Positions 1,057-20,750 of a DNA stretch of 21,095 nt are shown one piece after another. Each line of letters begins with the position of its first letter. Position 1 is the stretch's first letter. The notes below the pieces were generated by a model. The model saw only the letters and a program-made list of their open reading frames with translations, had not been told where the DNA came from and ran no database searches. A program made the translations under genes and the position numbers. Source of the stretch: a virus; IMG/VR virus record IMGVR_UViG_3300036761_000167, positions 1-21,095 of that record. One strand, written 5' to 3'.

Positions 1057-2473
1057 AGGACTCCCAGAACCACATGTGGCTCCCGTCCGTCGAGCCCGGG
1101 TCGAGCAGCGTGCCATTGACGGTCACGGTGTACGCGCTGGTACCGGCCGGGATGAATGGCCATGTCGTGGAGTTGGTGAAGGTCAGCCAGCTCCGGCGCA
1201 GCGACTCGACGCCGTTCTCCTGCACGGTGAACAGCTTGTCACGCTTGAAGCGCAGAAGGCGGTAGGACACCTTCGAGTAGTTGGACACGGTGTAGTTGAC
1301 CGTGATGTCGATGACTGCCCCGCCCGAGGTCAGTGACACGGAGAAGGCGTTGGCGGTCAGCCCGGTGGCAGACACGAAGTAGGTCGTGTTCAGGTTCAGG
1401 CCGGTCCCGCCCGTCAGGGTGGTGAAGTAGACCCGGTCCCCTGCGAGCAGGCCGTGGCCGGTCAGGGTGACGAGGTCCGTCCCGGCGTTGGCCGTGACCC
1501 CGGTGTAGGCAGGGTCGGTCGTGGCGGGAATTGCAATCGTGAAGTTCGAGCCGCCAGCGGAGACCGTGATGGTCCCAGCCTGTGCGCCGACTGCCATGAG
1601 CATGTTGAGCGGAGCGTTGTAGGTGCCGCGATTGAGGAAGTTGCCAGCGAAGGTCTGGAACTTGGACGCCTCGACTCGGGTGTAGTCCACCGTGATGTTG
1701 ACGGTGGCGCCACCGTTCGTGAGGCTCACGGCGAAGGCGGTAGAGGTCAGCCCGGCCGCGAGGACGTAGTAGCTGGTGTTCAGGCCGAGGCCCGTCCCGC
1801 CAGCAAGGCGCGAGAAGAAGATGCGGTCCCCGGCGACGAGGCCGTGGGCGGACAGGAACGACACAAGGTCGGTGGCCTGTGCGGCCGTGCCGTTGTTGAG
1901 CACGACGCCATCGGCGAAGGCCACGTCCTGCGGTGTGATGCCCTCGAAGGTCGGGTCACGCATCGTGAACATCCCGGACCAACTCATGGCCATGGCGTCT
2001 CCGTCCACGCCGCCGTGCTGGTCACGGTTGATGGGGGAGTGGAACCCCTTGGGCATGACGAGGGCGCGCATTTCAATTGCCCCAGTCGGGAAGTTGACAT
2101 TGTCATTCGTCGGGACGCTGAAGTACAGCGGCAGGTAGCCCTTGTCGCCCGGGATTTCCCGGGCCGCGAGCGTGGGGCTCATCGTCGCCCGGAGCTGCCA
2201 GAGGATGTCGTAGCACAGGGCGCGAGTCTTGCCGTACACGGTGCCCGAGAGGCGGATGCGCCGCCCACCGAGGAAGGGGCTGCCGACGTCCATGCCGTCA
2301 GCCTCCGCGCGCTTCTCGGTGAACTGGACGATGTCAACGTCATCGGGGTCGAACTCGTCAATGACGGAGCCCGCGATGCCCTTACCCAGCCCGTCGGAGC
2401 TGTCCACCCCGGACGCGACTGCGGCGTCGTTCAGCTTGAAGTTGCGGTAGATGATGTCCCGGGTGGTGTCCAT
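1049..2473 (-). CDS. Dit-like distal tail / baseplate protein with two inserted beta modules
   Basis: A 474-residue protein. Residues about 65-175 contain FLGGRRIRLSGTVYGKT, a run of leucines spaced as in a helix, LYFSVPTND and FTMRDPTFEG, the layout typical of distal tail (Dit-like) proteins of long-tailed phages. Two copies of an 75-residue module follow (about 190-265 and 323-397), sharing AGDR[IV][YF]F, GGTGL.LNT and AF[AS]VSLT. Similar modules are often reported in phage proteins as E1_FCCH-like domains. The C-terminus (WLTFTNSTTWPFIPAGTSAYTVTV) resembles the closing jelly-roll strand of such proteins. The start is an ATG preceded by GGGGAGG only one base away, after the capsid terminator. 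Dit identity is inferred from pattern; another tail protein with the same fold is possible. Confidence 0.6.
   Translation of the reverse strand: MDTTRDIIYRNFKLNDAAVASGVDSSDGLGKGIAGSVIDEFDPDDVDIVQFTEKRAEADGMDVGSPFLGGRRIRLSGTVYGKTRALCYDILWQLRATMSPTLAAREIPGDKGYLPLYFSVPTNDNVNFPTGAIEMRALVMPKGFHSPINRDQHGGVDGDAMAMSWSGMFTMRDPTFEGITPQDVAFADGVVLNNGTAAQATDLVSFLSAHGLVAGDRIFFSRLAGGTGLGLNTSYYVLAAGLTSTAFAVSLTNGGATVNITVDYTRVEASKFQTFAGNFLNRGTYNAPLNMLMAVGAQAGTITVSAGGSNFTIAIPATTDPAYTGVTANAGTDLVTLTGHGLLAGDRVYFTTLTGGTGLNLNTTYFVSATGLTANAFSVSLTSGGAVIDITVNYTVSNYSKVSYRLLRFKRDKLFTVQENGVESLRRSWLTFTNSTTWPFIPAGTSAYTVTVNGTLLDPGSTDGSHMWFWESYA
1283..1507 (-). repeat. beta module copy 2 in Dit-like protein
   Basis: Codes residues about 323-397, with GLLAGDRVYF, GGTGLNLNTTYFV and NAFSVSLTSGG. 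It aligns end to end with copy 1, and more distantly with the module inside the major capsid protein. Confidence 0.8.
1679..1906 (-). repeat. beta module copy 1 in Dit-like protein
   Basis: Codes residues about 190-265. It is recognisable by GLVAGDRIFF, GGTGLGLNTSYYV and TAFAVSLTNGG. It is clearly related to copy 2 in the same gene, also at DNA level, for example in the segment encoding AGDR and GGTGL. Confidence 0.8.
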
Positions 2474-2491
2474 GCCTCCCCATGGTACATG

Positions 2492-2526
2492 AACAACCCC
2501 CCTGCCGCAATGGCAGAGGGGTTGTT
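2492..2526 (-). terminator. hairpin terminator after the major capsid gene
   Basis: A 15-position inverted repeat (2492-2506 with 2512-2526) with one C-A mismatch and a 5-base loop. The stem is GC-rich in the middle and closed by AACAA/TTGTT. On the minus strand it lies 34 bases past the capsid stop and just before the Dit-like gene, ending in TTGTT, a short T-rich tail. It probably ends or weakens transcription after the capsid gene, so that capsid mRNA exceeds tail mRNA. Confidence 0.85.
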
Positions 2527-2559
2527 TGGACCGACTAGAGGAGCGTCACTCCCCAGCTA

Positions 2560-3789: not shown

Positions 3790-3824
3790 GGTGGGTGGTG
3801 GTCTTTCTCCGGTCTAGCCGGGGT

Positions 3825-4379
3825 CTAGAGCCAGTCTGGTGTCATGGTCTTCAGTCGAGCCTTGATGTCCTCAGACGTGTCGGGCTTGACCGTAGTACCA
3901 ACGGCACTTCCGCTGGCGGCGCGATTGCTCGCGTTGGGGTTCTGTGGAGTCGGGGGTTCTCCCTCGACAGGGGTCTCGGCGAACATGGCCTCGAAGTATG
4001 CGAGCCGGACCTCATCGGTGATTTCCGGGAGCTGGGCTCGTGCGTTCGGGTACTTGACGTCGAGGATTTTTCCGTTGGCTGTGACCTCCGCCTGCGAGGC
4101 TCGCTTCTCAGCGGCTTCCAAACGGGCTTGAAGGGTGGCGATGTCGGCTGCCTTGGTCTGGTCTGCGTCACGGTCGGCCGCCTCGTACTTGGCGAGCTTG
4201 GCCTGTGCATCCGTGAGTTGACGAGCGGCTTCCTGACGAGCTGCCTCTGCTCCTGCCTGACGCTTCCGTGCGAGGGCGAGCTGGTCCACCGCTGGTGTGG
4301 CCGTCGGGTCCGGGGTCTCGGTAGAGCCCTCGCCTTCTGGCGACGTTGCGCTGGTCGCGCCGTCGATAAGGTCTGTCAT
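3825..4379 (-). CDS. capsid scaffolding-like protein
   Basis: A 184-residue acidic, low-complexity protein: a Thr/Pro/Glu-rich N-terminus (about 1-35), a long helix rich in Ala, Gln, Lys and Glu (about 38-105, for example RLEAAEKRASQAEVTANG) able to form a coiled coil, and a short C-terminal helix IKARLKTMTPDWL. Size, coiled coil and position immediately before the capsid gene are typical of phage scaffolding proteins, which guide shell assembly and then leave. I chose the ATG giving MTDLIDGATS because an AGAAAGAGAG tract lies 13 bases upstream. An in-frame ATG 12 codons earlier, inside the ATTGCAAT motif, lacks a ribosome site. Confidence 0.75.
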   Translation of the reverse strand: MTDLIDGATSATSPEGEGSTETPDPTATPAVDQLALARKRQAGAEAARQEAARQLTDAQAKLAKYEAADRDADQTKAADIATLQARLEAAEKRASQAEVTANGKILDVKYPNARAQLPEITDEVRLAYFEAMFAETPVEGEPPTPQNPNASNRAASGSAVGTTVKPDTSEDIKARLKTMTPDWL

Positions 4380-4430
4380 TGGGGAAACACTACTCTCTTT
4401 CTGCGGACATTGCAATAGCCCGCGTTACTG
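4380..4430 (-). other. short intergenic gap before scaffold gene
   Basis: About 50 bases between the stop of the giant protein and the scaffold start. It holds an AGAAAGAGAG ribosome-site candidate and one ATTGCAAT (4409-4416), the only one of the 20 motif copies lying outside a chosen coding region. No convincing promoter is seen. Confidence 0.5.
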
Positions 4431-7400
4431 TCACTTCGCCGTGACGAAAAGTTCCTTCAGCCGAGCGAGGTCATCCGCAAGGATGGGCGCCAGTGCTGCC
4501 GCAGGAGTTGGTCCTGAGATGCTGGAGTCTACACCGCTCAGCGCAGCGCCACCAGCCGGGGCGCCGCCAGCCGGGGCGGGCAGGTTGATGAGGGATTGCA
4601 ATGCGGGCTGCTGAGCCTGCTCGTTCTGGAGTGACTGCACGGCACCCGGGATTTCCTCCACCGTGTTGACGACCTGTGCCACCCAACGCTGCGGGCTGAT
4701 GGTGGCCAGCTCGTCCCTCCACATGGCGCCGGGGTCCTTGCCGTTGAAGATGTCGCGCACGAGCGGAGACATGCGGGCCTCGTGCGAGGACCACGGCAGC
4801 GACGGCGTCAGATAGTCCGCGAGGAAGGCCCCGGAGGAGTTGTCCACGGCGCTCATCTTCTTGTCGAAGTCCGTGTCGTACTCGCGCTGCACGGCGATGG
4901 CGCGCTGGACGTCGTTGATGATGTATGTGGCGGCGTACGGGTTCTTCGCGAGGAACTTCACGCTCTCCGGCAGGACCTTGCCCCACATGTAGCTCGACGG
5001 GTAGAGGCCGAACAGCGGGTGGTTCAGGCTGCGCTCCAGCACGGACCGCTTGGTCTGCATCTCGGCCAGCCGGAAGACGTCCTGCTGAGCGTCTTGGATT
5101 TTGTTCTTCAGCAGCGAGATGACCAGCCCGTGGGTTCGATTGAAATTGACGGCGTTCGTCGTCGGGACCTTCTCAACGAGGTCGCGGAGGTCGCTGCGGG
5201 TGCGGGCACCCAGCTCTGCGCCGATGTTGTCCTGCACCCACTTCGAGAGCGCCTGCATGTAGCCCTCGACCTCGGGGTTCGGATGCGGCTTGCCGGAGAC
5301 GATGCGCTCCTTCACCATCTGGGGGAAGTTGTTGCCGAAGAAATTGTCATAGGGGTCGGCCTCCATCGGATGCCACACGCCATCCACGCCCAGCATCTCC
5401 GTCTTCTCGGGCGGGATGTGGCCGACGGTCAGGCGGTCCTCGCCGCCGATGTGGCGCCCGGGGCCAATCTGGCCGGGGACGTCAGCCTCCTTGACGCGGA
5501 AGATGGCCTCGCCCTCGTTACGGTTGTAGAACGAGGTCGGCTTGCCGGTGGTCACGCCGATGTGGTCAGGGATGCCGCCAGCGGCAGCGCCCGGCTTCTC
5601 GACGCGGTAGACGTAGCCCGGCTCGACCTTGAAGGACTTGGGCAGGGCAGCGACGGCCGGGCGCGGTGCGGCGCCGGGGGCCGACTTCGGCACGACGTAC
5701 TCAAACTGGGCGGGCTCGATGTGCGGGTTCACGGCGCCCGTGGCCTTCTCGAACTCCTGCATCAGGGTCTCCTGCGCGGAGACGTCAAGGTGCGAGCGCC
5801 ACACCTTGGTCCACTCCTCCAAGGGCTGCGACGCCTTCCCGGCCCGCAGGAACTCGATGAGCTGGCCCATGTGCGTGTCAAGGCCCTTGCCGCCGATGTT
5901 CGAGCCCATCACGCCGGACATGTACTCCCACGGGTCCATGCCCCGGTTCTTAGCCTCCATTGCAATGATGTCCTGCGCCTCCGCAGCGAAGTGGGGGCTG
6001 ATGTCCAGCCCGCCCTCGTCAATCGGCTTGGCCAGTCGCGCCCAATAGTTGTCCCACGTGTCGCCGAAGTAGTCCAGCGCCCGCTTGATGACGTCCGGGT
6101 GCAGGTGCATCTTGGTGCGAAGCTGCTCCTCCAGCCACGGGATGTCGTGCTCGCCCTTGACCAGCATGAAGGACCCGTTGACCTTCTCGACGTGGCCGGT
6201 GACGTCACGGCGGAGCGCGGCGCCGTCGGCATAGCCTGACCCAACCTCCTGCGCGAGGTCGTCAGGATGGAAGGACTGGATTTCGCCGATGCTGTTGGGC
6301 ACGGCCCACTCGCCTTCGCGGAGGAGCATGGTGTGGTCAAGCGTGCCGTCAGGATTGACGCGCGTGTGGCGCCAGCCGGACAGCATGTCCTGCGTGTACT
6401 GGAGGCCGACCTCATCCCGGGTGAGGTTCCGCCCGGCCAGCTCGTTGTAGTGCATTGTAATCTCGTCGATGTTGGTCCTGAAGCGGTCGGCCTCGGCCAG
6501 CATCTCGGCTCGCATCTGCGGGTCCGCAGCCTGCTCAGCGACAGTCTTCAGGTTCTCCAGTGCGCCCTCAACGATGTCGCCCATGCGCGCGTGCAGCATG
6601 TTCGTCATGTTGTTGGCGATGATGGCGTCAGGCGCACGAGCGATTTGGGTCAGCTTGTTCGCGTCGAGGCCCGCCTGCTGGAACCCGGAGCGGATGCCCT
6701 CGGTGAAGTTAGAGTGGGTGGCGAACTCGGGCATGTCCATGCTGAAGTGGCGCCCGAGGCCAGTCCGGCCCATGTTCTCGGTGATGGCCCGCAGGGTGGC
6801 GTTGGCCTCGGACAGAGCGCCCTTGCCAACCGGGATGATGCCCTCGATGACGGAGTAGTACGGCGCGTCGGTGACGCGCTGGATGACGAACATCGGATTG
6901 AAGACGTACCGCATCTTGTTGTAGACGCCGACCGTCAACTGGCCCGACACGTTGCTGCCATCTTGGATGGGGCCGGGCATGTGGCGAAGCGCAACGCGTG
7001 CCTTCTGGGAGAGCGCAGAGGTCACTCCCATGATGCGGAAGTCGCCCTCGGCCGCCTGAAGCAGATGGTCCATGACAACGTGAACGTCGAGCGCGGCCCC
7101 GTTCGCCATCCTGAAGTCGATGGGGATGATGTCGTGGATTTCCTTCCACAGGTTCTCGGGCTTGATGCCGCGCACATTGGAATAGTCGAGCCCAGCAACC
7201 TCCTTGGCGCGCTTCATGATTGCCGCCGAGATGGGCTTGGGGATGCCCGCGTCGAACGTGCTGCGCTCGAACCGCTGGTCGATGTTCTTGACGAGGCGCT
7301 GCCCCGTCACGCCATCGCGGAGCGTGTTGATGTACGCCTCAACGGACTCGACGGGCTTGGTCAGGCTCTCGGCCTTGGACGGTCCGATGATTTGCCCGAG

Positions 7401-10400
7401 GACGTTGCGGGTCGTGTCGCTGAACCGCTGGCGCCCGAACGGAACGGCGTCCACGTTGTGGCTGATGGTCGGCGCACGGTCGATGGTGTAGAGGCCGGTG
7501 GACGCGTCACGCTTGAAGCCCCACGCGACCTCCTCCTTCGGGCGAAAGCCGATTTTCCACAGCGGCGTCTTGGTCGCCTCCATGACATCGGGAGCGCCCA
7601 GCTTGACGTCGCTGAAGTGGGCGGTCTCGGGCGGGTTGCCCTTGTTACCCGGAATTTCAATGCCATCGTAGCCCTGCGCCTCCAGTTGCGCGCGGAGCTT
7701 CTGCGCCTCGACCTTCAGCTCCTCGGCCCGCGCTGCCCACTGCTCGGGCGGCAGGGCCTTGCCCGCCTTGTCCTTGTTGGGGGCTTGGAAGTAGTCGAAC
7801 TTCTTGCGGGTCAGGGCAAACGGGTTCTTCAGCTCGGCCTCGGCGCCGTAGACCTTCCCGGCGGTGCCCGCGTACCGCTCAGCGGCGGGGCGGCTGGTGG
7901 TCGTGAAGGCACCGAACTGACTGGTGGCGTTGTCGAACTGGCGGGCGGCCGGGTCAGCGGATGCGGAGGACAGCCCGGTGTCGGGGCTGCCGTGGAACCG
8001 CGTCGGGGCCTTGGGCATCCCGGGGTGCTCCATGTAGACGACGTCAGGCGTGCCGCCCTTCCAGCCGTCCGGCGCGTAGGCCGGGTTCCACGGCTCACGG
8101 CGCGTGACCTTGAACCCGCCCTTGGCGTACAACTCGGGGAGGCGCCCGGTCTCATCGAACGCGTCACCCTTGGTGGCGCCCAGTGCGTGGAAGTGCGGGA
8201 CCAGCTTCTCGATGACGCCCTTCTCGGTCCCGGCGTTGAAGACGGACACGAGGTCGCCGTCCGCCTTGATGGCGAACCCGGCCTTGCCGTCAGCCGACAG
8301 CCAGAGCTTCATGTGGCGATACTCGCCCTTCGGGTAGCGGTAGACGGTCTCGCCGACCGAACGGCCGTTCGACTTGACGACCTTCTGCGCCTTGGTGACG
8401 GCCGCAAAGAACTTCTCGTGCGAGACCGGGGTGAACCCTGCCTGCGCGAGGGCCTGCTGGGCGTCGGCCACGGCGGCCTTCTCGCGGGCGACCAGCTCGG
8501 CGGCGGTCACGACACGCTGCTCGCCAGTGGTGGAGTTGCGGGCCATGAAGTCACGCAGCGGCTTCAGGGCCGGATGGGCCAGCTCGGCCGCTGTCGCGCT
8601 CCGGGAGATGGCGCCGCGCTCAATCTCCTTCTCCAGCTCCTTGACCAGCGTTTCGAGCTGGTCCTTGCCGCCGGTCGCGTGACCGATGGTGGCGATGTGC
8701 CCGTACCGCATGGTCAGGTTGTTCCACTCCTGCGTGGCCGTGGCGATGGGGTCCTCGATGGACTTCGCCTCGTTCTTCAGTGCACCACGGATGTTGGCTA
8801 CGATGGCCTCTGCGGTGGCGCGGTCCAGCGTCTCAGGCGACATGAGGACAGCGTCCCGCAGGGTGAGCGTGCCGTCGTACATGGCTTGGTTGATGGCGGC
8901 GCGGGCCTTCTCGAACCCGACCTCGGCGCGCTTGTAGGTGATAGCGTGCAGAGCGGACCGCTGGTTGAACGACATGGTCGTCAGGCGCTTCTCCCAGTAG
9001 GGCACGTCCTTCCCAAAGACAGAGGCCATGCGACCTGCGAGGTTGACCTCCTCCTCAGCCGTAAAGGTGTTCTTCATGATGCGCTGCATGTGGTCAGTCA
9101 GCTCGGTGACGGCGTCACGCCCGGCGTTCTGGGCGAGCACGCCGGAGACGTCATCCGGCGACGTGCGAGCAAGGTGCTCGGCAAGCCCCTCATTGAGCAT
9201 GTCGCGGGCGTAGGTCATCGTGACCATCTCGTCGGCCTTGTCCATGGCGTAGGTGGCCATCGCGCTGTCAATCTCAGTGGTGAGCCCGTGCTCACGAGCC
9301 AGCGCCCGGATATCCTTGATGGTCTGCGGCCCGTGGGAGCGCATCAGCGACTCGACGGCGACGCCGTTCTTCAGGTCGGTGACGGCCCGGGCGACGGACG
9401 AGGGCTTGTAGACGGCGAGCGGGTCGAACAGGCCGCGCGTGATACGGAAGATGGGGCCACTGACCTCGCCCTTCTGGACGGTGGCCACCACGACGGCCAG
9501 CTTCTCAGCGGTGGTCGTGGCGAGGTCCAGCTTCTCGGCCATCGAGGCGCCCTCGCCAGCCATTGTAATCAGGCGCGTGCCCGTGGTCAGTCCCAGCTTG
9601 GAGATGGACCCGGCGCCGAGGGTGGCGTAAGTCAGTGGGTCGAGCGCGGCGGAACCGATGATTTGCCCGACCGGGTTGCGGGTGACGCCCTGACCGTGGC
9701 TGATGATGTAGTCGTTGGCGTGCTGTCGGGACCAGAGGCCCGACTTCAGCGCGTTGGCGGCCTTGGTCTCGACATCGGAGACCTCCATCCCGGCGTCCAG
9801 ACGGACAGTGGACTCGCCGACGCGGTCGAGCTTCGTGTTGATGTTCTTGTCAATCCAGTCCTGCGCCTGCTGGTTGGTCCACTTGCCGGACGTGACGTTC
9901 TCGACGGCGAACTTCTCGTAGTCGTTGAACGAGTAGGGGGTCGAGGACCCGACGTGCGACATGTACTTGTTGGGGTTGTCGCGGATGTCGAGGAGCCGGG
10001 TGATGTTGGTGGACCCGCCTTCGCCCGGCTTGTGGCCGGAGTAGTACGGGTCGAGCAGGCTGACGTTGCCCGCGATGCCCTGCACCGTGTTGGAGCCGAG
10101 GCCGAGGAAGCCCTTGATGGCGCCACTGAGGGCACCACCCAGAGAGCCGACCCCGGTGCGGCCCATCGCCAGCTCCGGCGTCCCGCCGAGGAAGCTGTCG
10201 TGCATGGTGTCATCCAGCAACTTCTGATACTCGATATTGAAATCGGCCTTCAGGTTGCCACCGCCCAGCACGTCGGCGTCCGCGCGGGTCTTCAGGACCA
10301 GCCAGTCGCCGTACATGGCGGGGTCCTGCGTCTTCAGGATGGAGCCGATGTGGTTGAAGGTGTCGTCGGCCCCGCCCGGGACCCAGCCCAGCGGGATGTG

Positions 10401-10847: not shown

Positions 10848-13346
10848 CTAACGAGCACCCGAATGATAATCCTTCGAGACGTCGTATGGCGTCGGGGCCG
10901 CAGTCGGGGCGGGTGTAGGCGTGACCGGCAGGTTGGTCGGCGTCGGCGTCGGTGTCGGCGTAACGGCTGTCGGCGTTGGAGTCGGCATCGGGCCAATCGG
11001 GCTCGGCTGCGCTGGAGGGGCACCCACGCCGGGCAGTGTACCAGCATTGGGACCTGCGGCGGGACCCTGACCTTGGAAGTGCGCCGCACCCTGCATGTTC
11101 TTCAGATAGGACGGCAGGCCCGGGACAACGAGAGTCTGTCCGCCGAAGTTGATGGTGGTTGGCTTGTCGTAGGCGCCCGGGGCGGTGGTGGTGCCCGGGT
11201 ACTGGAGGTCGGCCCGCAGCGCGGGGTTCGTGTTGCTCGCGCGCACGGCGTTGTCCAAGCTGTTCTCGTGCGCGGTCGTAACGACCTTCCACGCATCAGC
11301 GATGCGCGGGTCGTACGGGTCCTTGATGCCGAGACCGTTCATCGTCTGCGCGACGAACTGCTGCTGGAACGCCGGGTCATTGGCGAAGGCGGTCACTTGG
11401 TCGAGGGTCTGCGTCGCGGCCGTGGCCTTGACCGACGCGGCCAGAGGCGACGCGAAGGTGGTGCCCGGGACGAACCCGGCCTGAATACGGGACTGGCTGT
11501 ACCCCTGCGACTGCGCCCCCTGCACGGGGATGTCCGTCGGCGTGTCGGTGGACGCGATGACGTGGCCCTTGTCGTCCAGCGTGTTCTGCGTGACGGTCTG
11601 GGTGAACTTGTCGTCCTTGTAGGTCAGCGTGGTGGTCCCGATGACGTGGCCGTTGGCGTCGAGCGAGTTCTGCTTGACGCTGGCGCCGCCGGAGAAGTCG
11701 CCAGCATCGCGCTGTGCCTTCAACTGAGCGGCGAGCTGCGCGCCTGCGACGAGCGGGTTCCCGTCCTTGTCCTTCAGCCCGGCGGCTGCGACGGCGGGGT
11801 CCGCAATCTGCGCGGCGGGCGGCGAGACGTAGACGTCGCCCTTGTTGTCAATCTGGGTCGTCGCGCCATCCGCCAGCGGCGAGATGATGGACCACTGGGT
11901 CTTGCCCGTGTTGTCCTGATACGACCAGAGTGAAATGTCCTTGCCGCCGACCTTGTACGAAATCTGGTAGCCCGCCAGCCGAGGCGAAGCGCCCGGGTTG
12001 TTCGGGTCGGTGACGTACACGGAGTGGCCCGGCATCATGGCCATCACGGCCTTGCCGTCGGAGCCCGGGACCATGACGCCCGAGGCGGTGGGAGGGATGG
12101 CGCCAGCCGGGACGATGCCCAGCGCGCCCTGCCCGGTCGGGTCGTAGTTCCCGGCGTTGTCCACAGGAGCGTAGGCGAACCCAAGCGGGTTGGTCGCCAT
12201 TTCAAGAGCCTTCTGCTGGAGGACGGAGACGACCATTGCCGCCTCTGGGCTCACACCCGGGCGCGACAGCATGGACGAGCCGAAGGACGGGGCGTCCCCG
12301 GCATCTTGCCCCTGAAGGCGCAGCGCGTCGGCGGCAATCATGTCCTTCGAGCCTTGGTCGATGCCCGGGGTCTGGGCAAGCGTGCCGAGCTGCGTGGCGT
12401 AGATGTTGGACGCGTTCGTCTTGTCCATCTGGGAGGCGTTCGGGTCATTCATGACCTTCAGCCATGCGGTCTCGAAGTTGGTGTAGGACTCGGCGACCGG
12501 CCACACCTTCAAGTTCTGACCCCACGAGGCCATCGCGGACATGCCCTGCGCCGCATTGGCGTAGGCGGACACGAAGCCGCCCTTCTGCGCCTTGTCAGCG
12601 ATGAGGCTGTACCCGGCCACAGCGGACTTGATGTGCTGATTGAAATAGCCCTCGGTGAGCTGGCCGTCCCAGTGCGGGTCGCTTTTCTTGATGGTGTCGA
12701 GGAGCGCCCGGTACTTGTCCGGGTTCGCGTTGACGTCATTCGTCAACTGCGCCAGCAGCTCATCGCCATTGCCGGTGATGGACAGGCCCGTCGCCTTAGA
12801 CAGGTCGGACAGGGCGGTCGTCATCGCATCGCCGATTGCAATGTCGCTATTGGTGGTGTTGGTGACGAACGTGTTGAACGCGTCGGTCCGCGCCTTGTCG
12901 GCGTTCGCGTGGCTCTTGGCCTTCGCGCCCTCGATGAGCTGAGCCGCGTCCTTCTGGAGGGTGCGGTAGAACTCACTGTTCTTCGGGACCTTCTGTGCCC
13001 ACTTCAGGAAGAACTGCGCGTACGCGTTGTCGGACATCTTGCCCTGCACGTGCAGGACGTCAGCCTTCGACTGGGCGATGCCGTACTGAAGCTGCATGAT
13101 TTGGTTCTTGGCCTGCTCGTAGGTCGGGTCGCCCGGGTCCAGCCCCTCCTCCCGGGTCTTCCAGTACGCGAGCGCCATCTCGTCGGTGACTTTCTTCCCC
13201 TCGAAGGTGCCACCATTCCGCCACGCATCCATGATGAGCGAGTCCCTCTTTGCCACGTACTCGCGAGCGAGCGCGACGATTTGACCCGTGACATTCGGGG
13301 CTACCCGTGGCTGGAGGCCGAACGAGCCCCTACGACTCCGGGCCAT
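10848..13346 (-). CDS. 832-residue uncharacterised virion-associated protein
   Basis: I do not recognise a family. The N-terminal 400 residues are mostly helical (for example EFYRTLQKDAAQLIEGAKAK and KARTDAFNTFVTNT). The middle (about 400-600) is beta-rich with GHSVYVTDPNNPG and a Trp/Tyr-rich ISLWSYQDNTGKTQWS. A short internal duplication (QNSLDANGHVIGTT and QNTLDDKGHVIAST) falls near 560-600. The last 60 residues are a Pro/Thr tail of PTPTPT repeats. The start ATG overlaps the portal stop (TAATG) with AGGAAG just upstream, so it is translationally coupled to the portal. Position between portal and the giant protein suggests an internal or ejected head protein, or a portal-linked connector; this is inference only. 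Confidence 0.65.
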   Translation of the reverse strand: MARSRRGSFGLQPRVAPNVTGQIVALAREYVAKRDSLIMDAWRNGGTFEGKKVTDEMALAYWKTREEGLDPGDPTYEQAKNQIMQLQYGIAQSKADVLHVQGKMSDNAYAQFFLKWAQKVPKNSEFYRTLQKDAAQLIEGAKAKSHANADKARTDAFNTFVTNTTNSDIAIGDAMTTALSDLSKATGLSITGNGDELLAQLTNDVNANPDKYRALLDTIKKSDPHWDGQLTEGYFNQHIKSAVAGYSLIADKAQKGGFVSAYANAAQGMSAMASWGQNLKVWPVAESYTNFETAWLKVMNDPNASQMDKTNASNIYATQLGTLAQTPGIDQGSKDMIAADALRLQGQDAGDAPSFGSSMLSRPGVSPEAAMVVSVLQQKALEMATNPLGFAYAPVDNAGNYDPTGQGALGIVPAGAIPPTASGVMVPGSDGKAVMAMMPGHSVYVTDPNNPGASPRLAGYQISYKVGGKDISLWSYQDNTGKTQWSIISPLADGATTQIDNKGDVYVSPPAAQIADPAVAAAGLKDKDGNPLVAGAQLAAQLKAQRDAGDFSGGASVKQNSLDANGHVIGTTTLTYKDDKFTQTVTQNTLDDKGHVIASTDTPTDIPVQGAQSQGYSQSRIQAGFVPGTTFASPLAASVKATAATQTLDQVTAFANDPAFQQQFVAQTMNGLGIKDPYDPRIADAWKVVTTAHENSLDNAVRASNTNPALRADLQYPGTTTAPGAYDKPTTINFGGQTLVVPGLPSYLKNMQGAAHFQGQGPAAGPNAGTLPGVGAPPAQPSPIGPMPTPTPTAVTPTPTPTPTNLPVTPTPAPTAAPTPYDVSKDYHSGAR
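10936..10987 (-). repeat. Pro-Thr coding microrepeat
   Basis: Repeated GTCGGC/GTCGGT hexamers on the plus strand encode the PTPTPTPT tail of the 832-residue protein. Likely a flexible linker and prone to length change by slippage. Confidence 0.8.
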
Positions 13347-15313
13347 TACTTCCTACCGTACTTCGTGTTGTTCAGGATACGGCCGGAGAGCTTGCCACCT
13401 GCAATCATCGACTGGACCTGCGTGGACTGCGGGCCATTGGCCTGCGCGGTCGCACCTGCGGGACCCTGTGCGAAGGGCGAAGACTGGGCTCCGGCCACGT
13501 CCGGCGTCTGCGGAACCATGCCGTCTGCGGCCTGCCCGCCACCACCGAGGGGGTTCCCACCCGGGGTAGCCTGCCCAAGTGCAGCCTGAAGGTCGGCAGC
13601 GCCGGAGGCGGCCTGACCCTGAGCCTGCGCCTGCACGCCCTGCGGCGCCTGAGCGTTGGCCGCATTCAGCGCCGCCATGAGCTGGACCATGAGGTTGACT
13701 CGGTCCGGCCACAGCGTAGCGTCGGTGGACTCGCGGCGGATGATGTTCTGCTCCTGCTCCGGGTCATCGACACCGACGGCATCCATGCCTCGGGCCTGCG
13801 ACCAGAGCTTGGCGTTGACGAGGCTGGCGGCGCGGTTCGCGGTCTCCATCTCGTCGCGCGGGGAGAGCGACGGGTCCTGAATGTCAAGTCGCGGCATCCC
13901 ATTAGCGATGACGCGCTTGATGAACTGGCCGTTCTCGCCCTTCATGTTGGCCCACACCTTGCAGACCAGCTCCCACGTCTTGCGGTCCCACTCGTAGAAC
14001 AGCAGTCGGCGCATTGCAATCCGGGACTCGTAGTTGGCGACCAGCGCGTTGATGGCCTTCGAGCTGTTCAGGACCGCGCTCGGGGCGAGCCCCAGCAGCA
14101 GGTCATTCAGGCCCGAGATGATGGCCATTTCCCGGTCGATGCGCCCGAGGAACTGCTCCAATTGGAATTCGGCGATGTACGGAGCGATGGACTCGAACCT
14201 GTTGCCGGGTCCGGGGCTCACCGTCTGGTTGAGGATTGGCTTGACGTTCGCAGCACCGCGAGCTGGGGCGTTCTCGCCCGTGATTTGCCAGTAATCGCCA
14301 GCGGTGGCCTTCTGTATCATCTGCGCGCCCGCCGTGATGCGGGTCATCTTCTCGCGGATGAGCTGTTCCATATCGTGCAGCTCGGAACGTCCGGTTGGGG
14401 TGCCGGGAACGAACGTATTGAACAGCGGAACGTACGGCACGACGCCGTTGTAGTAGGCGTATTTCTCGTCGCGGACGACCTCGTTGCCGACGACGATGCA
14501 GTTCCACGTCTCCATCTTGGCGGGCGAGCCCTTCTTCCCGGGCTTCGTGACCTTGCGGTACCAGTAGTCCCAGACCTCGACGCGGGCCGGACCCCAGTTC
14601 AGCTCCGGGCGGGGGATGTCGGCGTACGCGGAGTCGATTGCTCCCGTCACCCACGGGACTATCGTCCCATCGGCCATGGACTTCGCGGTGATTTCGACGC
14701 TGTACCGCTCCATGGCGGACTTCGGGTCGATGAGCGTGACCTGCGCGGCCCACTCCAGCGTGTCGTAATTGTCATCCTTGAAGCCGAGGTACAGGTTGCG
14801 CGGGTTGATGATGACCTCGGCGCACGGGTACGCCTTGTCAAGGTCCGGGTAGACGAACGAGGCGGTTCGGCCGTACAGGCCCTTCACCGTGGCGCCCTTG
14901 TGGCGCTTCAACTGCCAGCCCTCGTCCACCTTCCATGACTCCCGGACTCGTTCAAGGGCGTTCGCGTTGTCGCGACCCTCCTCGGAGTCCTCGATGGCAA
15001 CGATGTTCTCGATGGGCTCGACCGCCTGAAGGGCGGCTGGGACCTCGACGTAGACCTGCGGGCTGTTCAGCGAGACGTGCGAGCGTCCATCGACCTTTAG
15101 GTTGGGGTCGTCGGGCCACAAATCGGCTCCGAACTGGGTGAAGGTGGTCGAATAGAACAAAGCGTCGTATCGCTTGCACTCGTCCGCGAAGGCGTCGTGT
15201 TCCAGCTTGATGCCCTGAATACGGCCCTGAAGCGCGCGTTGCAGCTCCATCTCGGACTTATCGCCCTCAGACAGGCCAATAACGAGCGTCAGGTCTTGGT
15301 ACTTGGGCTCCAC
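13346..15313 (-). CDS. portal protein
   Basis: A 655-residue portal (head-to-tail connector) protein, the dodecameric ring through which DNA is packed and released. Seen: an N-terminal helical region, DKAYPCAEVIINPRNLYLGF (about 158-177), a beta-rich middle with VEVWDYWYRKV and WNCIVVGNEVVRDEKY, PYVPLFNTFVPGTPTGRSEL, then the long helix region with GRSELHDMEQLIREKMTRIT and ISGLNDLLLGLAPSAVLNSSKAI split across about 300-430. The gly/gln/ala-rich C-terminus (about 555-640) is disordered. Size and layout fit podovirus- and P22-like portals. It begins at GTG 48 bases after the large terminase stop, with no strong ribosome site, and its stop overlaps the next start. Assignment rests on gene order plus these features. 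Confidence 0.85.
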   Translation of the reverse strand: MEPKYQDLTLVIGLSEGDKSEMELQRALQGRIQGIKLEHDAFADECKRYDALFYSTTFTQFGADLWPDDPNLKVDGRSHVSLNSPQVYVEVPAALQAVEPIENIVAIEDSEEGRDNANALERVRESWKVDEGWQLKRHKGATVKGLYGRTASFVYPDLDKAYPCAEVIINPRNLYLGFKDDNYDTLEWAAQVTLIDPKSAMERYSVEITAKSMADGTIVPWVTGAIDSAYADIPRPELNWGPARVEVWDYWYRKVTKPGKKGSPAKMETWNCIVVGNEVVRDEKYAYYNGVVPYVPLFNTFVPGTPTGRSELHDMEQLIREKMTRITAGAQMIQKATAGDYWQITGENAPARGAANVKPILNQTVSPGPGNRFESIAPYIAEFQLEQFLGRIDREMAIISGLNDLLLGLAPSAVLNSSKAINALVANYESRIAMRRLLFYEWDRKTWELVCKVWANMKGENGQFIKRVIANGMPRLDIQDPSLSPRDEMETANRAASLVNAKLWSQARGMDAVGVDDPEQEQNIIRRESTDATLWPDRVNLMVQLMAALNAANAQAPQGVQAQAQGQAASGAADLQAALGQATPGGNPLGGGGQAADGMVPQTPDVAGAQSSPFAQGPAGATAQANGPQSTQVQSMIAGGKLSGRILNNTKYGRK

Positions 15314-15361
15314 TAGGTGCGACTCACGGTGCGCTGAGTGTATGCCCGCTGATTGAGCGCG
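15314..15361 (-). other. 48-base gap between terminase and portal
   Basis: The only clear spacer in the packaging block. It contains short GC-rich sequence with one CTAG near the portal start. I see no strong Shine-Dalgarno site, hairpin or promoter in it. Confidence 0.4.
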
Positions 15362-17008
15362 TCAAGCTGGCCGCTTGAACCCGGCGAAGGTCGTCAGCCC
15401 GGGGTCGTACCCCTGCATCAGAACTTCCGCCGCAGACAGCTCTCGCTGCGCGTCGGGGTCTCCGAAGACGAACGTCGCAGACCTCGATTGCCCGGGACGG
15501 GGCAGGGAACGGCCGAGTTTCACGATGATGGCAAGGCACATGACCAAGTCCTGCTCCATCTTGCGGTCGGCCAGCTTGTAGTTGAGGCTCTGCTTCTGAA
15601 CCTCGGCCCAGAAGCCGCTCGCTGGCAGCTTGATGTTGCCCTCATCAAACGCGGTCCGCAGGTCCGAGAGAAGCTGGCGCTTGGTCTTGATGACCCCGCC
15701 AAACTCAATCGTGCGAACCACAGGAATAGCCTCCTCCAGTAGCTCCTTGAACATGTGGCCACCCAGAGCGGTGTGGTCCACTCCTGTTTCGACTTCGGCG
15801 CCATCCGCCGCGTACGCCATGTGGTCACGAGCGCCCAGCGCGACGATGCCGCGCGTCGTCTGCTTGCCCTCCTGCCTGTCGAGCGAGACGCCATTCAGCC
15901 TCCCATCAGAGTCCATCTCGCAGACCATCGACCAGCACTTGTCCTTCAGCCCCGGGTCGAGCGCGTGGGCGTAGACGTGTCCCGCCCCGGCAGGCTCGGT
16001 GCGCTCGGGCATGGAGTCGATGAAGGCCGCGCGCACGGAGGCGGCGTTGAACCAGACCCCCATCGCTTGGATGAACATGCCCTCGATGTTCTGGTCAATC
16101 CAGCCCTGCGGCTGATGCAGGATGAGGGCATCGAACGACTCGCGGTCGATGCCGTACCCGATGTTGTCGCGGGTGGACATTCTCATTGAGAAGGCGCGCG
16201 GGTCCCGGAACGGGTCCTCCGGGTCGCCCGTGTACCACAAGTCCTCGAACTCGGTGCTCGTGTCAGCCGACGGGGTCGAGATGAGGATGAACTGTCCGCC
16301 AGTCGAGAGCCGCCGGGCGTGCATGATTTCCTTGACGAGGTAGACGAGGGACGGCGCCTCTTGGAGCCCGGCCTCATCGAATGACAATCCGTGCATGTTC
16401 TGGCCGATGGCCGACAGGGCCTTGGCCTTGGTGCTACGGAAGTGGACCTGCGCGCCGCCCAGCTCGGCAGCGAATGCAATCCACGCGTACTCGCCGCGCT
16501 CCTTCAGGCCCTCGGTCCACTCAACTCCCTCGACTTGGGTGGCTTTCGCGACCTTTCGGGCACCTACGACCGAGTTCCCGCCGCCAATGGCCTTGGTCCA
16601 CGGGCAGCCTTCCTTCTGGGCCGGGTGTGAGCCGCCCAGCAGGTTGATGATTTCGGTGAACACCTGTTCTGCCGGAGCCTGCTCCACGGCGAAGTGCCAC
16701 CAGTGATAGGGCAGAGAGCCAAACCGCTTCAGCTCGTCCGGGCTGGACCCGGGCTTCGGCGGCTCCAGACCGGAGCGGTAGATGCACGAGTGCAGGATGA
16801 TGACCGCGAGGGCCAGCGTCTTGCCCGCGCGGTTCCCGGCGGCCACCATTATCCAGTAGTAGTAGGCGCGCCAGCGCGAGTCGGTGCGCTTGATGTAGGC
16901 GTCCATCATGCGCTGCTGCCCGGGGTGCAGCTTGATGCCGAGGAAGATGCGGGCGAACCTCTTTGGGTCCCAGCGGCACCGCTCGAATTCCTTGACCCAG
17001 TCAATCAT
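15362..17008 (-). CDS. terL: terminase large subunit
   Basis: A 548-residue packaging motor. It couples ATP hydrolysis to DNA translocation through the portal and cuts the concatemer. ATPase: Walker A GNRAGKT (about 58-64), Walker B LSFDEA (208-213) with its catalytic glutamate, and the coupling motif LISTPS (242-247). The C-terminal RNase H-like nuclease begins around YAHALDPGLKD (first acidic residue near 351), and further acidic residues follow. I take the ATG overlapping the small terminase stop (ATGATTGA), giving MIDWVKEFERC. In-frame ATGs 15 and 23 codons upstream are possible but lie deep inside the neighbouring gene. Confidence 0.93.
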   Translation of the reverse strand: MIDWVKEFERCRWDPKRFARIFLGIKLHPGQQRMMDAYIKRTDSRWRAYYYWIMVAAGNRAGKTLALAVIILHSCIYRSGLEPPKPGSSPDELKRFGSLPYHWWHFAVEQAPAEQVFTEIINLLGGSHPAQKEGCPWTKAIGGGNSVVGARKVAKATQVEGVEWTEGLKERGEYAWIAFAAELGGAQVHFRSTKAKALSAIGQNMHGLSFDEAGLQEAPSLVYLVKEIMHARRLSTGGQFILISTPSADTSTEFEDLWYTGDPEDPFRDPRAFSMRMSTRDNIGYGIDRESFDALILHQPQGWIDQNIEGMFIQAMGVWFNAASVRAAFIDSMPERTEPAGAGHVYAHALDPGLKDKCWSMVCEMDSDGRLNGVSLDRQEGKQTTRGIVALGARDHMAYAADGAEVETGVDHTALGGHMFKELLEEAIPVVRTIEFGGVIKTKRQLLSDLRTAFDEGNIKLPASGFWAEVQKQSLNYKLADRKMEQDLVMCLAIIVKLGRSLPRPGQSRSATFVFGDPDAQRELSAAEVLMQGYDPGLTTFAGFKRPA

Positions 17009-17651
17009 CTTCACTGTTTCCGGTATCTTCACCCTCAGTGTGAAGAACGACATTCGCTTCGATTTCAAGCGGTTCATTCGCTTGCTTGCCCGAGATGAGC
17101 TTCGGCGCCAGCCCGGCGGCCGTCATGGCCTCGAACAGCCCCAATTTCAATTCGCCCTGCACCTTCTCGCGCTTGTCGCTGAGACCCTGCGTCTTCAGGA
17201 TGGAGCCGATGGCGGACTGCATGTCCTTGCCGAGGATGTCGGTGAAGGACGACCAGTCCACGTTGGGGCGGTCGTAGTCCTCGCCCGCTGCCTCGTGCTT
17301 CTCGCGCTGCGCGTCGATGTACTCGTTCGTCTCGTCCGCGCGCATCTTGGCCAGCTCGATACGGCGCTCAATCTCGTCCAATTGCAATCGCTGGAGCCGG
17401 AGGATGCGCTCACGGACGGGCGCCTCGGGGGCGACGTCAACCTCGCGAGTAGCCCCGCCGAGTGAGTGTTCCTTCAGGTGCTTCAGGATGGTTGCGGGGT
17501 TCGGCGTGCCACCGAGCAGGTCCGAGATGGCCACGCCCGACATGCCGCCGTTCCACATCAGCTCGACGGCGTTGCGGCGGTCTGTGTGCTTGCAGATGAC
17601 GCAACGCGAGTTGATGGTGCGTCGAACCGCCATCTGGGATTGGGTCGTCAT
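17001..17651 (-). CDS. terS: terminase small subunit
   Basis: A 216-residue protein that would recognise the phage packaging site and present DNA to the large subunit. The N-terminus has RCVICKHTDRRNAVELMW with a Cys-x-x-Cys pair (17 and 20), then MSGVAISDLLGGTPNPATILKHLKEHS, a helix-turn-helix-like stretch (about 37-63). A long charged helix (about 78-118) follows, suitable for oligomerisation. The C-terminus is acidic. It sits directly before the large terminase (8-base overlap) and overlaps the VRR-NUC gene by ATGA. Small terminases vary greatly in sequence, so the call relies on position, size and the DNA-binding-like N-terminus. Confidence 0.8.
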   Translation of the reverse strand: MTTQSQMAVRRTINSRCVICKHTDRRNAVELMWNGGMSGVAISDLLGGTPNPATILKHLKEHSLGGATREVDVAPEAPVRERILRLQRLQLDEIERRIELAKMRADETNEYIDAQREKHEAAGEDYDRPNVDWSSFTDILGKDMQSAIGSILKTQGLSDKREKVQGELKLGLFEAMTAAGLAPKLISGKQANEPLEIEANVVLHTEGEDTGNSEDD

Positions 17652-18157
17652 AGAGCCCCCAGTATGGCGTTGAGGGTACCGTCGCGCAAATCGACCGGGC
17701 GGATGACCACGGCCGGAATGCCGCAGACGTTGAGCAACTGGAGGTATTCGAGCTGCCCGGGCTCGAAGGTCCCGTTCATCCGCTTCAGCTCGATGGCGAG
17801 CGGGCGACGCTGGCGCTCGTGGAGCAGGAATAGGTCGGGGAACGACTTGGCGGTGGACACGAAGATAGGGGCTCCAGCGGCGTCAAATGCCGCAATTCCC
17901 TTGCCAACGTGCTTGACATCCCACCCCCGGGACTTCGCGCGGGCGATTACCCGGCTCTGGAGGGTCTTTTCGCTCATCCTATTGTCCCGGCACCACTCCA
18001 CGCCCTCCTTATGGCGGATGAACTTGTCGCAAGAGGGGCAATACGACTTTGCCGCGTCCGCGAATGCCACTTTCGCGCCCTTCGGGTCCTGTTTCACCAT
18101 GACGAGGGACCGCCGAAGGCTGAAATCTGTTGAGTCGTGTAGCACATTGTCATTCAT
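17648..18157 (-). CDS. VRR-NUC domain nuclease
   Basis: A 169-residue protein of the PD-(D/E)XK superfamily, VRR-NUC branch. The C-terminal half holds the core: MSEKTLQSRVIARAKSRGW (61-79), KSFPDLFLLH with the catalytic Asp (about 108), LAIELKRMNG with Glu and Lys (123 and 125), and GQLEYLQLLN (134-143), followed by AVVIRP. The N-terminal 60 residues carry CPSC (40-43) with a later His and Cys (about 49 and 56), a possible zinc site. Such nucleases often act on branched DNA during phage replication or packaging. It lies between helicase and terminase, overlapping both neighbours (8 bases and ATGA), with AGGA five bases before its start. Confidence 0.88.
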   Translation of the reverse strand: MNDNVLHDSTDFSLRRSLVMVKQDPKGAKVAFADAAKSYCPSCDKFIRHKEGVEWCRDNRMSEKTLQSRVIARAKSRGWDVKHVGKGIAAFDAAGAPIFVSTAKSFPDLFLLHERQRRPLAIELKRMNGTFEPGQLEYLQLLNVCGIPAVVIRPVDLRDGTLNAILGAL

Positions 18158-19556
18158 CGTCGTCCTGAACGTCCGTCATGTTCTTCAGGCGGACTCCGAT
18201 GAAGAACCGGCCCGAGTTCTTGGTCCTGCGGTCGAACTTGCGGGCAAGCGCGAGGCCAAACCCGGTCTGGGTCATCTTCTCGGACCCGTTCCGGTCGCAC
18301 CAACCGTCAAATGCCTTCCAGAGCTGCCCCGAGGCGACCTCGGTGTTCGGGTCCCTCACACACATCTCCTCTACGAACGTACCCAGCGGGTCGTTCTCGG
18401 CGATGTACGCGTCCGACCAGTCCGTCACCTTCTGGGGCTGCGGCAGGCCCGACGTCAGGTACTCCTGCGCGGCGATGCCCATGACGAGCAGCGCGCCTTG
18501 GAGGTTCTTCGTCTCCTGAAGGCGGGCCTCGATGTCCTTGTCGTCGCGCTTGGGGTCCCGGTAGTCCTGCTCGAACCACAGCATCCGCACGCGGCGCTGC
18601 ATCGACGGGCCGACATCCTCCGTACGGGGCGGGTTGTTGGTCAGGAACACTATCTTGTGGGTGGGGTTGAAGGTCTTGAAGGTCTTGGAGTAGAGGGTCC
18701 GACCCTCGATGGGGTCGTTGCCGGTGTGCGCCTTCAGCATCTCCTCGTTGAACTGCCCACCCTGCGGCTCCGACATGTAGGTGAACCGCGCTCCCTCCAG
18801 CTTCAGCAGCTCCGGGCGGGGCTTCTCGCTGCTCGCGGACCCGTACTTGGTCTTCATGTAGAGGGTGTCCGGCGGGGTCGCGGCGTAGTCGCCAAGGGCC
18901 ATGGTCACTGTCCGCGCCAGCACGCCCTTGCCGTTCTGGCCCTGCCCGACCCACATCCAGAACTTCTGCTCCCGCGTCGTGCCGAGCGCCGCGTAGCCCA
19001 GCGTGCGGAGGAGATAGTCGCGCAGGTCCGCGTCGCCGCCCATGATGTCGTCCACGAAGCTGATGAACGGCCGGGTGTCTGCCTGCGGGTCCCAGTCCAC
19101 GCCGGTCGAGCGGCTGATGAGGAGTTCCGGCGCCGGGTTCGTGTCCAGTACGAGGGTCCGCAGGTCGAGCACGCCGTTGTTGAAGCCCAGTAGCTCCGGC
19201 CACTGGTCCCACTCCTCGCCCGTCATTGCAATACCCGGCATCGAGGCCAGCGCCTTCAGGACGGACACCTTCTTCCCGGTGTCGTAGAGGGCGGAGTACA
19301 GCTTGCCGTCAGCCTCGGTCTTGACCATGCCCGTGTTGATGTCGAACCAGTGCGACATGCGCTGCCGGATGAGGTCGAAGACCACGGTCGTCCGGTCGGG
19401 TGCCCAGCGGATGCCGTTCCAGACATGCCAGAGCTGGGTCGAGTGGTCGTACCGCACCGTGTCCCCGAGCCCGATGTCGTCGGGCTGGGCGAGCACCCAC
19501 GCGAAGTAGTCGTCGCGGGTGGTCGGATGGATTGGGAACGGCTCGATACTACCCAC
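18150..19556 (-). CDS. replicative helicase, SF3 / D5-like (P4-type primase C-terminal half)
   Basis: A 468-residue helicase. The middle carries SF3-type ATPase motifs: Walker A VGQGQNGKGV (203-212), Walker B ARFTYMSEP (256-264), motif C KIVFLTNNPP (301-310) and an arginine-rich RRVRM (about 321-325). The N-terminal region (about 30-150) with WHVWNGIRWAPD and GFNNGVLDLRT matches the D5_N domain preceding the helicase in phage and plasmid primase-helicases. The usual fused primase domain is absent and is supplied by the adjacent upstream gene. The C-terminal region (about 375-460) looks winged-helix-like. It starts at GTG overlapping the Prim-Pol stop by 8 bases. Role: unwinding at the replication fork. 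Confidence 0.92.
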   Translation of the reverse strand: MGSIEPFPIHPTTRDDYFAWVLAQPDDIGLGDTVRYDHSTQLWHVWNGIRWAPDRTTVVFDLIRQRMSHWFDINTGMVKTEADGKLYSALYDTGKKVSVLKALASMPGIAMTGEEWDQWPELLGFNNGVLDLRTLVLDTNPAPELLISRSTGVDWDPQADTRPFISFVDDIMGGDADLRDYLLRTLGYAALGTTREQKFWMWVGQGQNGKGVLARTVTMALGDYAATPPDTLYMKTKYGSASSEKPRPELLKLEGARFTYMSEPQGGQFNEEMLKAHTGNDPIEGRTLYSKTFKTFNPTHKIVFLTNNPPRTEDVGPSMQRRVRMLWFEQDYRDPKRDDKDIEARLQETKNLQGALLVMGIAAQEYLTSGLPQPQKVTDWSDAYIAENDPLGTFVEEMCVRDPNTEVASGQLWKAFDGWCDRNGSEKMTQTGFGLALARKFDRRTKNSGRFFIGVRLKNMTDVQDDDE

Positions 19557-20451
19557 GCGGGGCTCGTTTGTAGGCGCCCTTGATGGTGTCCCGGGCGCGT
19601 GAGCGCGGGTGTCCCCCTTGGATGGCGGCGGCCAGAAGTCTTGTCATCGAGACTTCATAGGGTACACCTTCATCGCGCGCTGTCATCGCCGCCCAGTGGA
19701 TGACGTTGTTCTGGTTGCCGTCCGCCGCGTTGATGATGGCCTTCTCCAGCCCCTCCAGCCCGTAGCTCCACGTCTTCGGCCACAGCCACCACGGCTTGCC
19801 CTCCTCGTAGGCGACGACGAAGCTCGTGACTTCTGGCTTGGGGAGCACGGCCTTCAGCCCCGCCCACTGGTCGGCGGCCTCGAACTTGACCCGCACCGAC
19901 TCCGGCAGGACGTCCGGCATGGAGAGGAACGACCCGCCGGAGACGAGGGGGAAGACCCATTCGTAGGTCCCGTCCTCGTCTCCGTCGGCATCGAAGTGGA
20001 GGGATGGAGGCGCGACGACGTATCCGCCGAACCCCTTGAAAAGGAGGGTACGGCCCGGGTCAGGCTGCTCGCCATCCCCGAGCCATCGGTTCTTGTTCGC
20101 GCCCGGGCACCAGAACCAGATGTGCAGGCCGTTCTTTGTCTTGGCGACGACCGAGTCGTCTTGGGGTAGCCAGCCCAGTTCGAGCAGCAGCTCTGCGGCG
20201 CGCTCGCTGTCCACGTCGGCGACGTAGAAGTTCTCCGGGATGAGGATTGCAATTCCGGTGGTGCCAACTTGGTCGCTGAACGCCTGCCAGAGTGCGTCGC
20301 GTTCGGCCTCGTTGTCCGGCGCGCCGTAGAAGCTGTCCTCCCACGACCAGCTCTCGCCATGCACCCGGCCGTTCGGGCGCTTGCCAGTCAGGGCGAGGAT
20401 GTGCAGCCCGGCTGTGGCGTATTCGACGGCGGCGGTTTGCAGGTCAGTCAA
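19549..20451 (-). CDS. primase-polymerase (archaeo-eukaryotic primase fold, Prim-Pol)
   Basis: A 300-residue primase that would make primers for the adjacent helicase. Motif I VADVDSE (acidic pair at about 79 and 81), motif II TKNGLHIWFW (His about 110) and motif III GGYVVAPPS (142-150) are all present and correctly ordered for bifunctional primase/polymerase domains. The C-terminal third (about 200-300) with KTWSYGLEGLEKAI and NNVIHWAAMTARDEG resembles the helical tail found after such domains. I place the start at TTG (complement 20449-20451), because AAAGGA sits 5 bases upstream. A longer reading from a TTG at 20541 would run through two hairpins and has no ribosome site. Confidence 0.88.
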   Translation of the reverse strand: MTDLQTAAVEYATAGLHILALTGKRPNGRVHGESWSWEDSFYGAPDNEAERDALWQAFSDQVGTTGIAILIPENFYVADVDSERAAELLLELGWLPQDDSVVAKTKNGLHIWFWCPGANKNRWLGDGEQPDPGRTLLFKGFGGYVVAPPSLHFDADGDEDGTYEWVFPLVSGGSFLSMPDVLPESVRVKFEAADQWAGLKAVLPKPEVTSFVVAYEEGKPWWLWPKTWSYGLEGLEKAIINAADGNQNNVIHWAAMTARDEGVPYEVSMTRLLAAAIQGGHPRSRARDTIKGAYKRAPRG

Positions 20452-20567: not shown

Positions 20568-20750
20568 CTACGAGGTCCGGCGCTTCTCCCGCCAGTTGGC
20601 GAGGTCAACCGAAGCGATGACGTAGCCACGCCCCCGCTTGGTCGGCTCGCGCGTGGCCAGAAGCTCGCGCTTGCGGACAGCTCGCCGGATGGTCTCCGGG
20701 TTGCATCCGACCAGCGCGGCCGCCTCGGCGGTGCTGAAGTAACGCGCCAT
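20568..20750 (-). CDS. small helix-turn-helix DNA-binding protein (excisionase/MerR-like)
   Basis: A 60-residue protein. FSTAEAAALVGCNPETIRRAVRKREL (residues 5-30, here in outline) is a helix-turn-helix of the excisionase/MerR type, followed by the wing GRGYVIASVDLANWREKR. Proteins of this size act as transcription regulators or recombination directionality factors; no integrase is visible, so a regulatory role at the replication operon is more likely. The ATG lies two bases after the upstream stop, with AAGAAG just before. The hairpin leader downstream is a plausible target, by inference only. Confidence 0.85.
   Translation of the reverse strand: MARYFSTAEAAALVGCNPETIRRAVRKRELLATREPTKRGRGYVIASVDLANWREKRRTS

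Follow-up and report, generated by a model that had tools for sequence, protein, structure and literature searches.

A selected, clade-wide DNA octamer in a phage family without cultured members

The window, as the stretch of DNA analysed here is called, corresponds to a phage record of 21 kb in IMG/VR (21,095 nucleotides) and carries genes for a major capsid protein, a portal, a large terminase (TerL), a VRR-NUC nuclease, a D5-type helicase and a PrimPol. A 2138-aa open reading frame (4431-10847) separates the portal side from the capsid gene and has only weak PHROG matches of unknown function; no identification was reached for an 832-aa open reading frame. Adjoining the PrimPol gene, on the minus strand, lies a gene for a 60-aa HTH_17 winged-helix protein of MerR/BldC/RacA/Xis-like type (20568-20750). 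The window also avoids restriction-type sites to an extreme degree, with GATC (0 versus 101 expected), CCWGG (0 versus 66) and GAATC/GATTC (0) missing and CCGCGG, GCCGGC, GGGCCC, GTCGAC and CTCGAG all absent. Avoidance of CCWGG is clade-wide, and that of GATC is seen in some members only.

Among all 8-mers of the window, the palindrome ATTGCAAT is the most over-represented. It is one form of the word ATTGNAAT, which occupies 20 distinct sites between positions 1530 and 20253. Nine are copies of the palindrome, and the other 11 are asymmetric, matching ATTGNAAT on one strand. The first-pass annotation had placed 20 copies in this same interval, mostly inside genes and about 40-fold above expectation, and our recount returns the same sites at a slightly larger excess of about 50-fold (0.36 sites expected under an order-1 model). 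Strand matches number 29, compared with 0.43 after dinucleotide shuffles (maximum 3). Nineteen of the 20 sites fall in predicted coding sequence, where coding density predicts 19.1, and shuffling the synonymous codons of the window genes, with every encoded protein kept, leaves a mean of 0.39 intragenic sites (maximum 3) in place of the 19 observed. The sites are mostly single and occur in several reading frames, on both strands and also between genes; frame 0 is common, read as Ile-Ala or Ile-Glu codons. The plus strand holds 54 ATTG and 46 CAAT half-sites, compared with about 90 in the first-pass annotation. A weaker second form, ATTGTCAT/ATGACAAT, which that annotation had missed, has five copies in the window (2099-2106, 5343-5350, 14768-14775 and 18146-18153 on the plus strand; 16381-16388 on the minus strand, ATGACAAT on plus) and reaches 22× in the pooled clade. 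The window motif is real, and it is neither a codon nor a protein effect.

Relatives of the window preserve many of these sites at aligned positions. The palindrome at 12835-12842 is identical in 11 of 11 aligned relatives, those in the D5-helicase gene (19225-19232) and the PrimPol gene (20246-20253) are kept in all aligned relatives except L007 and L009, respectively, and the motif is present at 4409-4416 in five of five and at 14013-14020 in 12 of 14, the distant contig L025 included. The other palindromes lie at 1530-1537 (kept in G005, G001, G002 and G006, in the last as ATTGTAAT), 4595-4602 (G005 and G001), 5959-5966 (G001) and 17381-17388. The ATTGAAAT sites on the plus strand are kept in six relatives (10236-10243), in five (12639-12646) or, among the aligned relatives, in the window only (5139-5146). 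On the minus strand, ATTGAAAT occurs at 7654-7661, at 2070-2077 (kept in G005 and, as ATTGCAAT, in G002) and at 17144-17151, where relatives without the site have three to four bases changed together (GCTTCAGG and others). Two ATTGTAAT sites (plus strand) are found at 6454-6461, replaced by ATTGCAAT in G005, and 9562-9569, kept in G005 and L002, and ATTGGAAT sites at 7176-7183 (plus; kept in G005 and G001), 10474-10481 (minus) and 14161-14168 (plus), the last alternating with ATTGAAAT among relatives.

This retention exceeds that of AT-rich control octamers in genome pairs with 73-80% overall identity. Complete sites are retained at 13/19 positions between the window and G001 (controls 32%), 8/19 between the window and G002 (10%), 18/37 between G001 and G002 (18%) and 9/21 in another pair (13%); G005, the closest relative (92%), shows little difference (14/19 versus 67%). 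Substitutions within sites often stay within the motif (ATTGCAAT to ATTTCAAT, ATTGGAAT to ATTGAAAT), and aligned positions that lack a site usually differ by several bases changed together. The earlier proposal that selection acts on the DNA itself is thus borne out by the codon-aware shuffle, by conservation at aligned positions and by enrichment in close and moderately distant relatives alike.

IMG/VR yielded 29 relatives of the window, and the motif marks a clade of about 25 uncultivated, GC-rich phage contigs. Among 50,697 phage records (INPHARED), the window TerL has no relative and the portal no match, and the major capsid protein returns only weak matches (25-40%); one TerL alignment scan of bacterial and archaeal species genomes recovered neither a host nor a prophage relative. 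In the main terminase clade the motif is universal, with a density of about 0.4-2 sites per kb versus roughly 0.02-0.06 expected. It runs through the entire 48-kb genomes of the relatives G001 (55 sites) and G002 (56 sites), the latter of which bears a 123-bp terminal repeat and appears to be complete. Synonymous shuffles of motif-bearing genomes give 0.2-0.6 intragenic sites versus 12-41 observed, and the reversed-pattern control TAANGTTA, whose stop codons make it a poor one for cellular genomes, has zero copies in seven whole virus records. More distantly, L025 bears the motif (six sites in 5.8 kb), and L024/G004, L042 and L023 are without it (1, 0 and 1 sites); depending on the order of these deep branches, this distribution may reflect either gain or loss. 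A paired-motif scan of IMG/VR returned background among the matches listed, and a stricter GC-context scan gave five matches while missing the clade itself, which makes it weakly informative about other viruses. The word is real, strong, clade-wide and under selection in a phage family without cultured members. The early region of the larger genomes also contains a MoxR-like AAA ATPase gene next to a DUF2201 metallopeptidase/VWA gene (L031-L033 in G002, L028-L030 in G001), a pair that motif-bearing genomes have and that was not seen in G004, together with a dATP/dGTP diphosphohydrolase domain and a MazG-like gene.

Sequence specificity was measured on 301 kb of relatives from the left halves that precede CAAT. 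ATTG (169×), ATTA (167×) and ATTT (116×) dominate, followed by ATGA (22×) and ATTC (10×), and all remaining left halves lie below 6×, nearly all at 3× or less. This pattern defines the word, which may lie on either strand, as ATTGHAAT; ATTGTCAT and ATTGGAAT are its weaker forms, and the two half-sites must abut. The palindrome (137×) and the asymmetric ATTGAAAT (98×) and ATTGTAAT (134×) are about equally enriched, such that the word is not a strict palindrome. Specificity is nearly all-or-none, a sharpness that is unusual for a transcription-factor site.

In the 48-kb genomes the sites are more evenly spaced than random placement predicts (coefficient of variation (CV) 0.73 in G001 and 0.72 in G002; P = 0.0096 and 0.0062). 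Adding ATTGTCAT lowers these values to 0.68 and 0.61, an evenness that 5000 random placements never reached. The added sites fall in the gaps between the others, an effect that is significant in G002 (P = 0.002-0.004) and marginal in G001 (P = 0.02-0.05). The CV is also below random in G003, G005, G006 and the window, as a tendency or borderline effect that is mostly without significance. Asymmetric sites show no strand bias, with 12 sense and 12 antisense in G001 and 10 of each in G002. Together, spacing and orientation look like a coverage function rather than the regulation of single genes. In the large records, the pairs of sites nearest to each other all have a spacing of exactly 16 bp (718/734 in G002, 21596/21612 and 29321/29337 in G003, 41361/41377 in G001), and apparently represent two independent orthologous pairs.

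When the motif-less relatives were scanned for 8-mers, GTGTAAAC ranked first by significance among the dispersed words of G004. Its log10 P of -9 there is more extreme than that of the top-ranked word in 42 of 43 other viral contigs, and it is also among the leading words of L042 and L023 combined. The three relatives hold 10 copies versus 0.2 expected, with one-mismatch forms at background, and G001-G003 have none. The copies, often in the form CGTGTAAACG, are dispersed and mostly coding; they are less dense than those of ATTGNAAT and not palindromic. Judged by its flanks, one copy is apparently orthologous in G004 and L023, and another is common to L023 and L042. As the counts are small, a switch of octamer, ATTGNAAT in one set of lineages and GTGTAAAC in the other, is probable but not established. 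Outside the clade, the AT-rich viral contig L061 has 20 dispersed copies of CTAGAACA versus 2.35 expected.

Some sequence-specific protein probably reads the octamer array, and the 60-aa protein beside PrimPol is the leading candidate. It is a phage helix-turn-helix protein of the sort mentioned in the first-pass annotation, and it co-occurs with the motif. Its Pfam HTH_17 (PF12728) match is well above the gathering cut-off (E = 1.8e-9; 38.2 bits versus 27), and orthologues are present in all 21 clade contigs that a profile search recovered, some of which are duplicates of one record. Comparison with the motif covers the contigs that extend into the HTH region, leaving out L023, L025 and L042, which stop before it. 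Motif-bearing phages show almost no change in the recognition helix and wing (ETIRRA...ELLATREPTKRGRGY), with E19, T20, R22, R23, A24, R26, E29-A32 and R34 invariant in the orthologues, while the rest of the protein varies; a protein that reads more than 50 conserved sites should show frozen contact residues of this kind. In the motif-less G004, the orthologue (44% identity) lacks the wing residues K38 and R39, with TKRGRGY replaced by LAPGRTL. HTH_17 proteins with a similar helix and a different wing on the motif-less contigs L293-L297 fit this idea weakly.

The predicted structure (pLDDT 86) looks like a stand-alone MerR-like winged helix without an effector domain, an architecture that, on this model, the candidate would share with the small proteins BldC, RacA and pSK1 Par. 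The latter two serve in DNA anchoring or partition. The highest-scoring folds are BldC-DNA (6ama; Z 5.3, RMSD 3.3 over 49 residues) and RacA-DNA (Z 5.1, RMSD 2.3 over 49); domains of MerR, Xis and the terminase small subunit score on a par with them. The structural alignments have 12-16% sequence identity, and a sequence search of solved structures with the HTH profile gave weak hits alone. The BldC family is characterised by head-to-tail oligomers on direct repeats of DNA, and the sites of the octamer are mostly single. A BldC protomer covers a 9-bp site, with its helix in the major groove and its wing in an AT-rich minor groove (PMC5859096), a footprint that would suit an 8-bp asymmetric word.

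Other readings place the reader of the word in the host, and a host Chi or HIP word should also be enriched in the host genome. Across 446 sampled genomes (296 Actinomycetota and 150 Pseudomonadota), nothing near one site per kb was found in a GC-rich genome, although the phage host may lie outside this sample. Six genomes with odd motif-to-control ratios are at composition-model expectation, and a paired-motif scan of bacterial genomes gave tandem repeats or background among the matches listed. The survey lowers both host-side readings. If the octamer were Chi-like, halting degradation and starting recombination by a RecBCD/AddAB/AdnAB-type host nuclease, the phage would pack its genome with it to survive or to recruit the enzyme, and the GTGTAAAC switch would point to hosts whose signal is another one. 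The idea suits the octamer length, the sharp specificity (one-off variants being weaker), the intragenic sites on both strands, the even coverage and the non-palindromic GTGTAAAC, and phages do enrich Chi, an octamer selected on their DNA in a lineage-dependent way for which fixed positions are unnecessary (median observed/expected 2.3 in lambdoids, 3.1 in those without recombinases; PMC3784561). We nevertheless regard it as unlikely: the phage word is AT-rich, evenly spaced and enriched about 100× or more rather than 2-3×, known Chi sequences are G-rich (PMC3784561, PMC8022716), none of the sampled bacterial genomes is enriched, and G002 has two exonuclease-family proteins of its own. The cyanobacterial HIP1 (GCGATCGC) resembles the phage word in being an exact octamer, sharply specified, intragenic and present at about 1 per kb, the genome-wide density seen in these phages, with alternate HIPs elsewhere as GTGTAAAC is here (PMC4390886). 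In the scheme modelled for HIP1, a host or phage methyltransferase would modify the motif, and a repair bias or a need for strand discrimination would keep about one site per kb. HIPs, however, are cellular features tied to methyltransferases, whereas the phage word is AT-rich in a GC-rich genome and not strictly palindromic; neither its variable central base nor the ATTGTCAT form suits a simple palindromic methyltransferase, Pfam/PHROGs scans of most G001 and G002 genes found no methyltransferase, and no enriched bacterial genome was found. We consider a HIP-like methylation or mismatch-repair mark distinctly improbable.

A phage repressor that silences transcription in lysogeny from many dispersed sites has a precedent in Cluster A mycobacteriophages, whose lineage-specific stoperators co-vary with the phage protein that reads them (PMC6550527, PMC9283540). 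Those sites are 13 bp and mostly oriented with transcription (PMC6550527), whereas the present word is 8 bp and unoriented, numbers 69 per 48-kb genome with ATTGTCAT, and is mostly intragenic (19 of 20 in the window), with no predominant orientation in G001 or G002. This balance and the coding location argue against stoperator-like and polar segregation signals. The gene scans made recognised no repressor-lysogeny genes, the HTH_17 protein being present. The one terminase scan found no prophage relative, and we give the repressor model very little weight. Slightly less again goes to a sponge or decoy that titrates a host regulator or nuclease; more sites would mean more titration, which would fit selection on every site, but a decoy needs no even spacing, and no host factor of this kind is known. 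The many frame-0 Ile-Ala and Ile-Glu sites might raise the suspicion of an artefact, due to codon usage, protein repeats or shared ancestry. That reading is refuted by the synonymous shuffles of motif-bearing genomes, by motif-preserving substitutions and by retention above controls, with the multiple frames, both strands and intergenic sites also against it, and has virtually no probability left.

Our preferred reading, held at a probability of roughly 40%, is that the phage's own 60-residue winged-helix protein binds an evenly spaced, genome-wide array of sites. It is drawn from correlation in sequence and from a structural model. The ATTGNAAT array, with the weaker ATTGTCAT and ATTGGAAT, would be maintained by selection on DNA independently of the encoded proteins. 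The recognition helix would contact one octamer half in the major groove, leaving the other, AT-rich half to the basic wing in the minor groove. In an architectural or segregation-type role, the protein may coat the replicating genome of the phage or anchor it, roughly every 0.7 kb. Each extra site would help slightly, and coverage would matter where exact position would not. Against this, the link consists of co-occurrence and one divergent orthologue, whose overall divergence could explain the changes in the wing, and the fold scores are middling, at a level that any MerR-like domain would reach. HTH_17 proteins also usually bind longer, fuzzier operators or direct repeats, while sharp octamers are more typical of enzymes such as those of Chi recognition and methyltransferases.

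More tentatively, the octamer could be a lineage-specific address, rewritten at lineage splits (ATTGNAAT versus GTGTAAAC) and read by a co-evolving winged-helix protein that organises, segregates or protects phage DNA, which would amount to a virus-encoded, sequence-addressed nucleoid. We consider this broader possibility rather doubtful at present.

Short words selected genome-wide are familiar from bacteria, as HIP1, Chi and DNA uptake sequences. In the literature searched, no phage word is described that recurs about every 0.7-1 kb and is specified in a nearly all-or-none way, and searches for the octamer itself returned primers and unrelated sequence only. The genomes offer dozens of conserved natural sites together with a very small candidate reader, so that a single binding experiment could give the mechanism. 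What HIP-like sequences mean is an unsolved question to which the finding is also relevant, as their density, sharpness and lineage switching recur here in a testable 48-kb genome.
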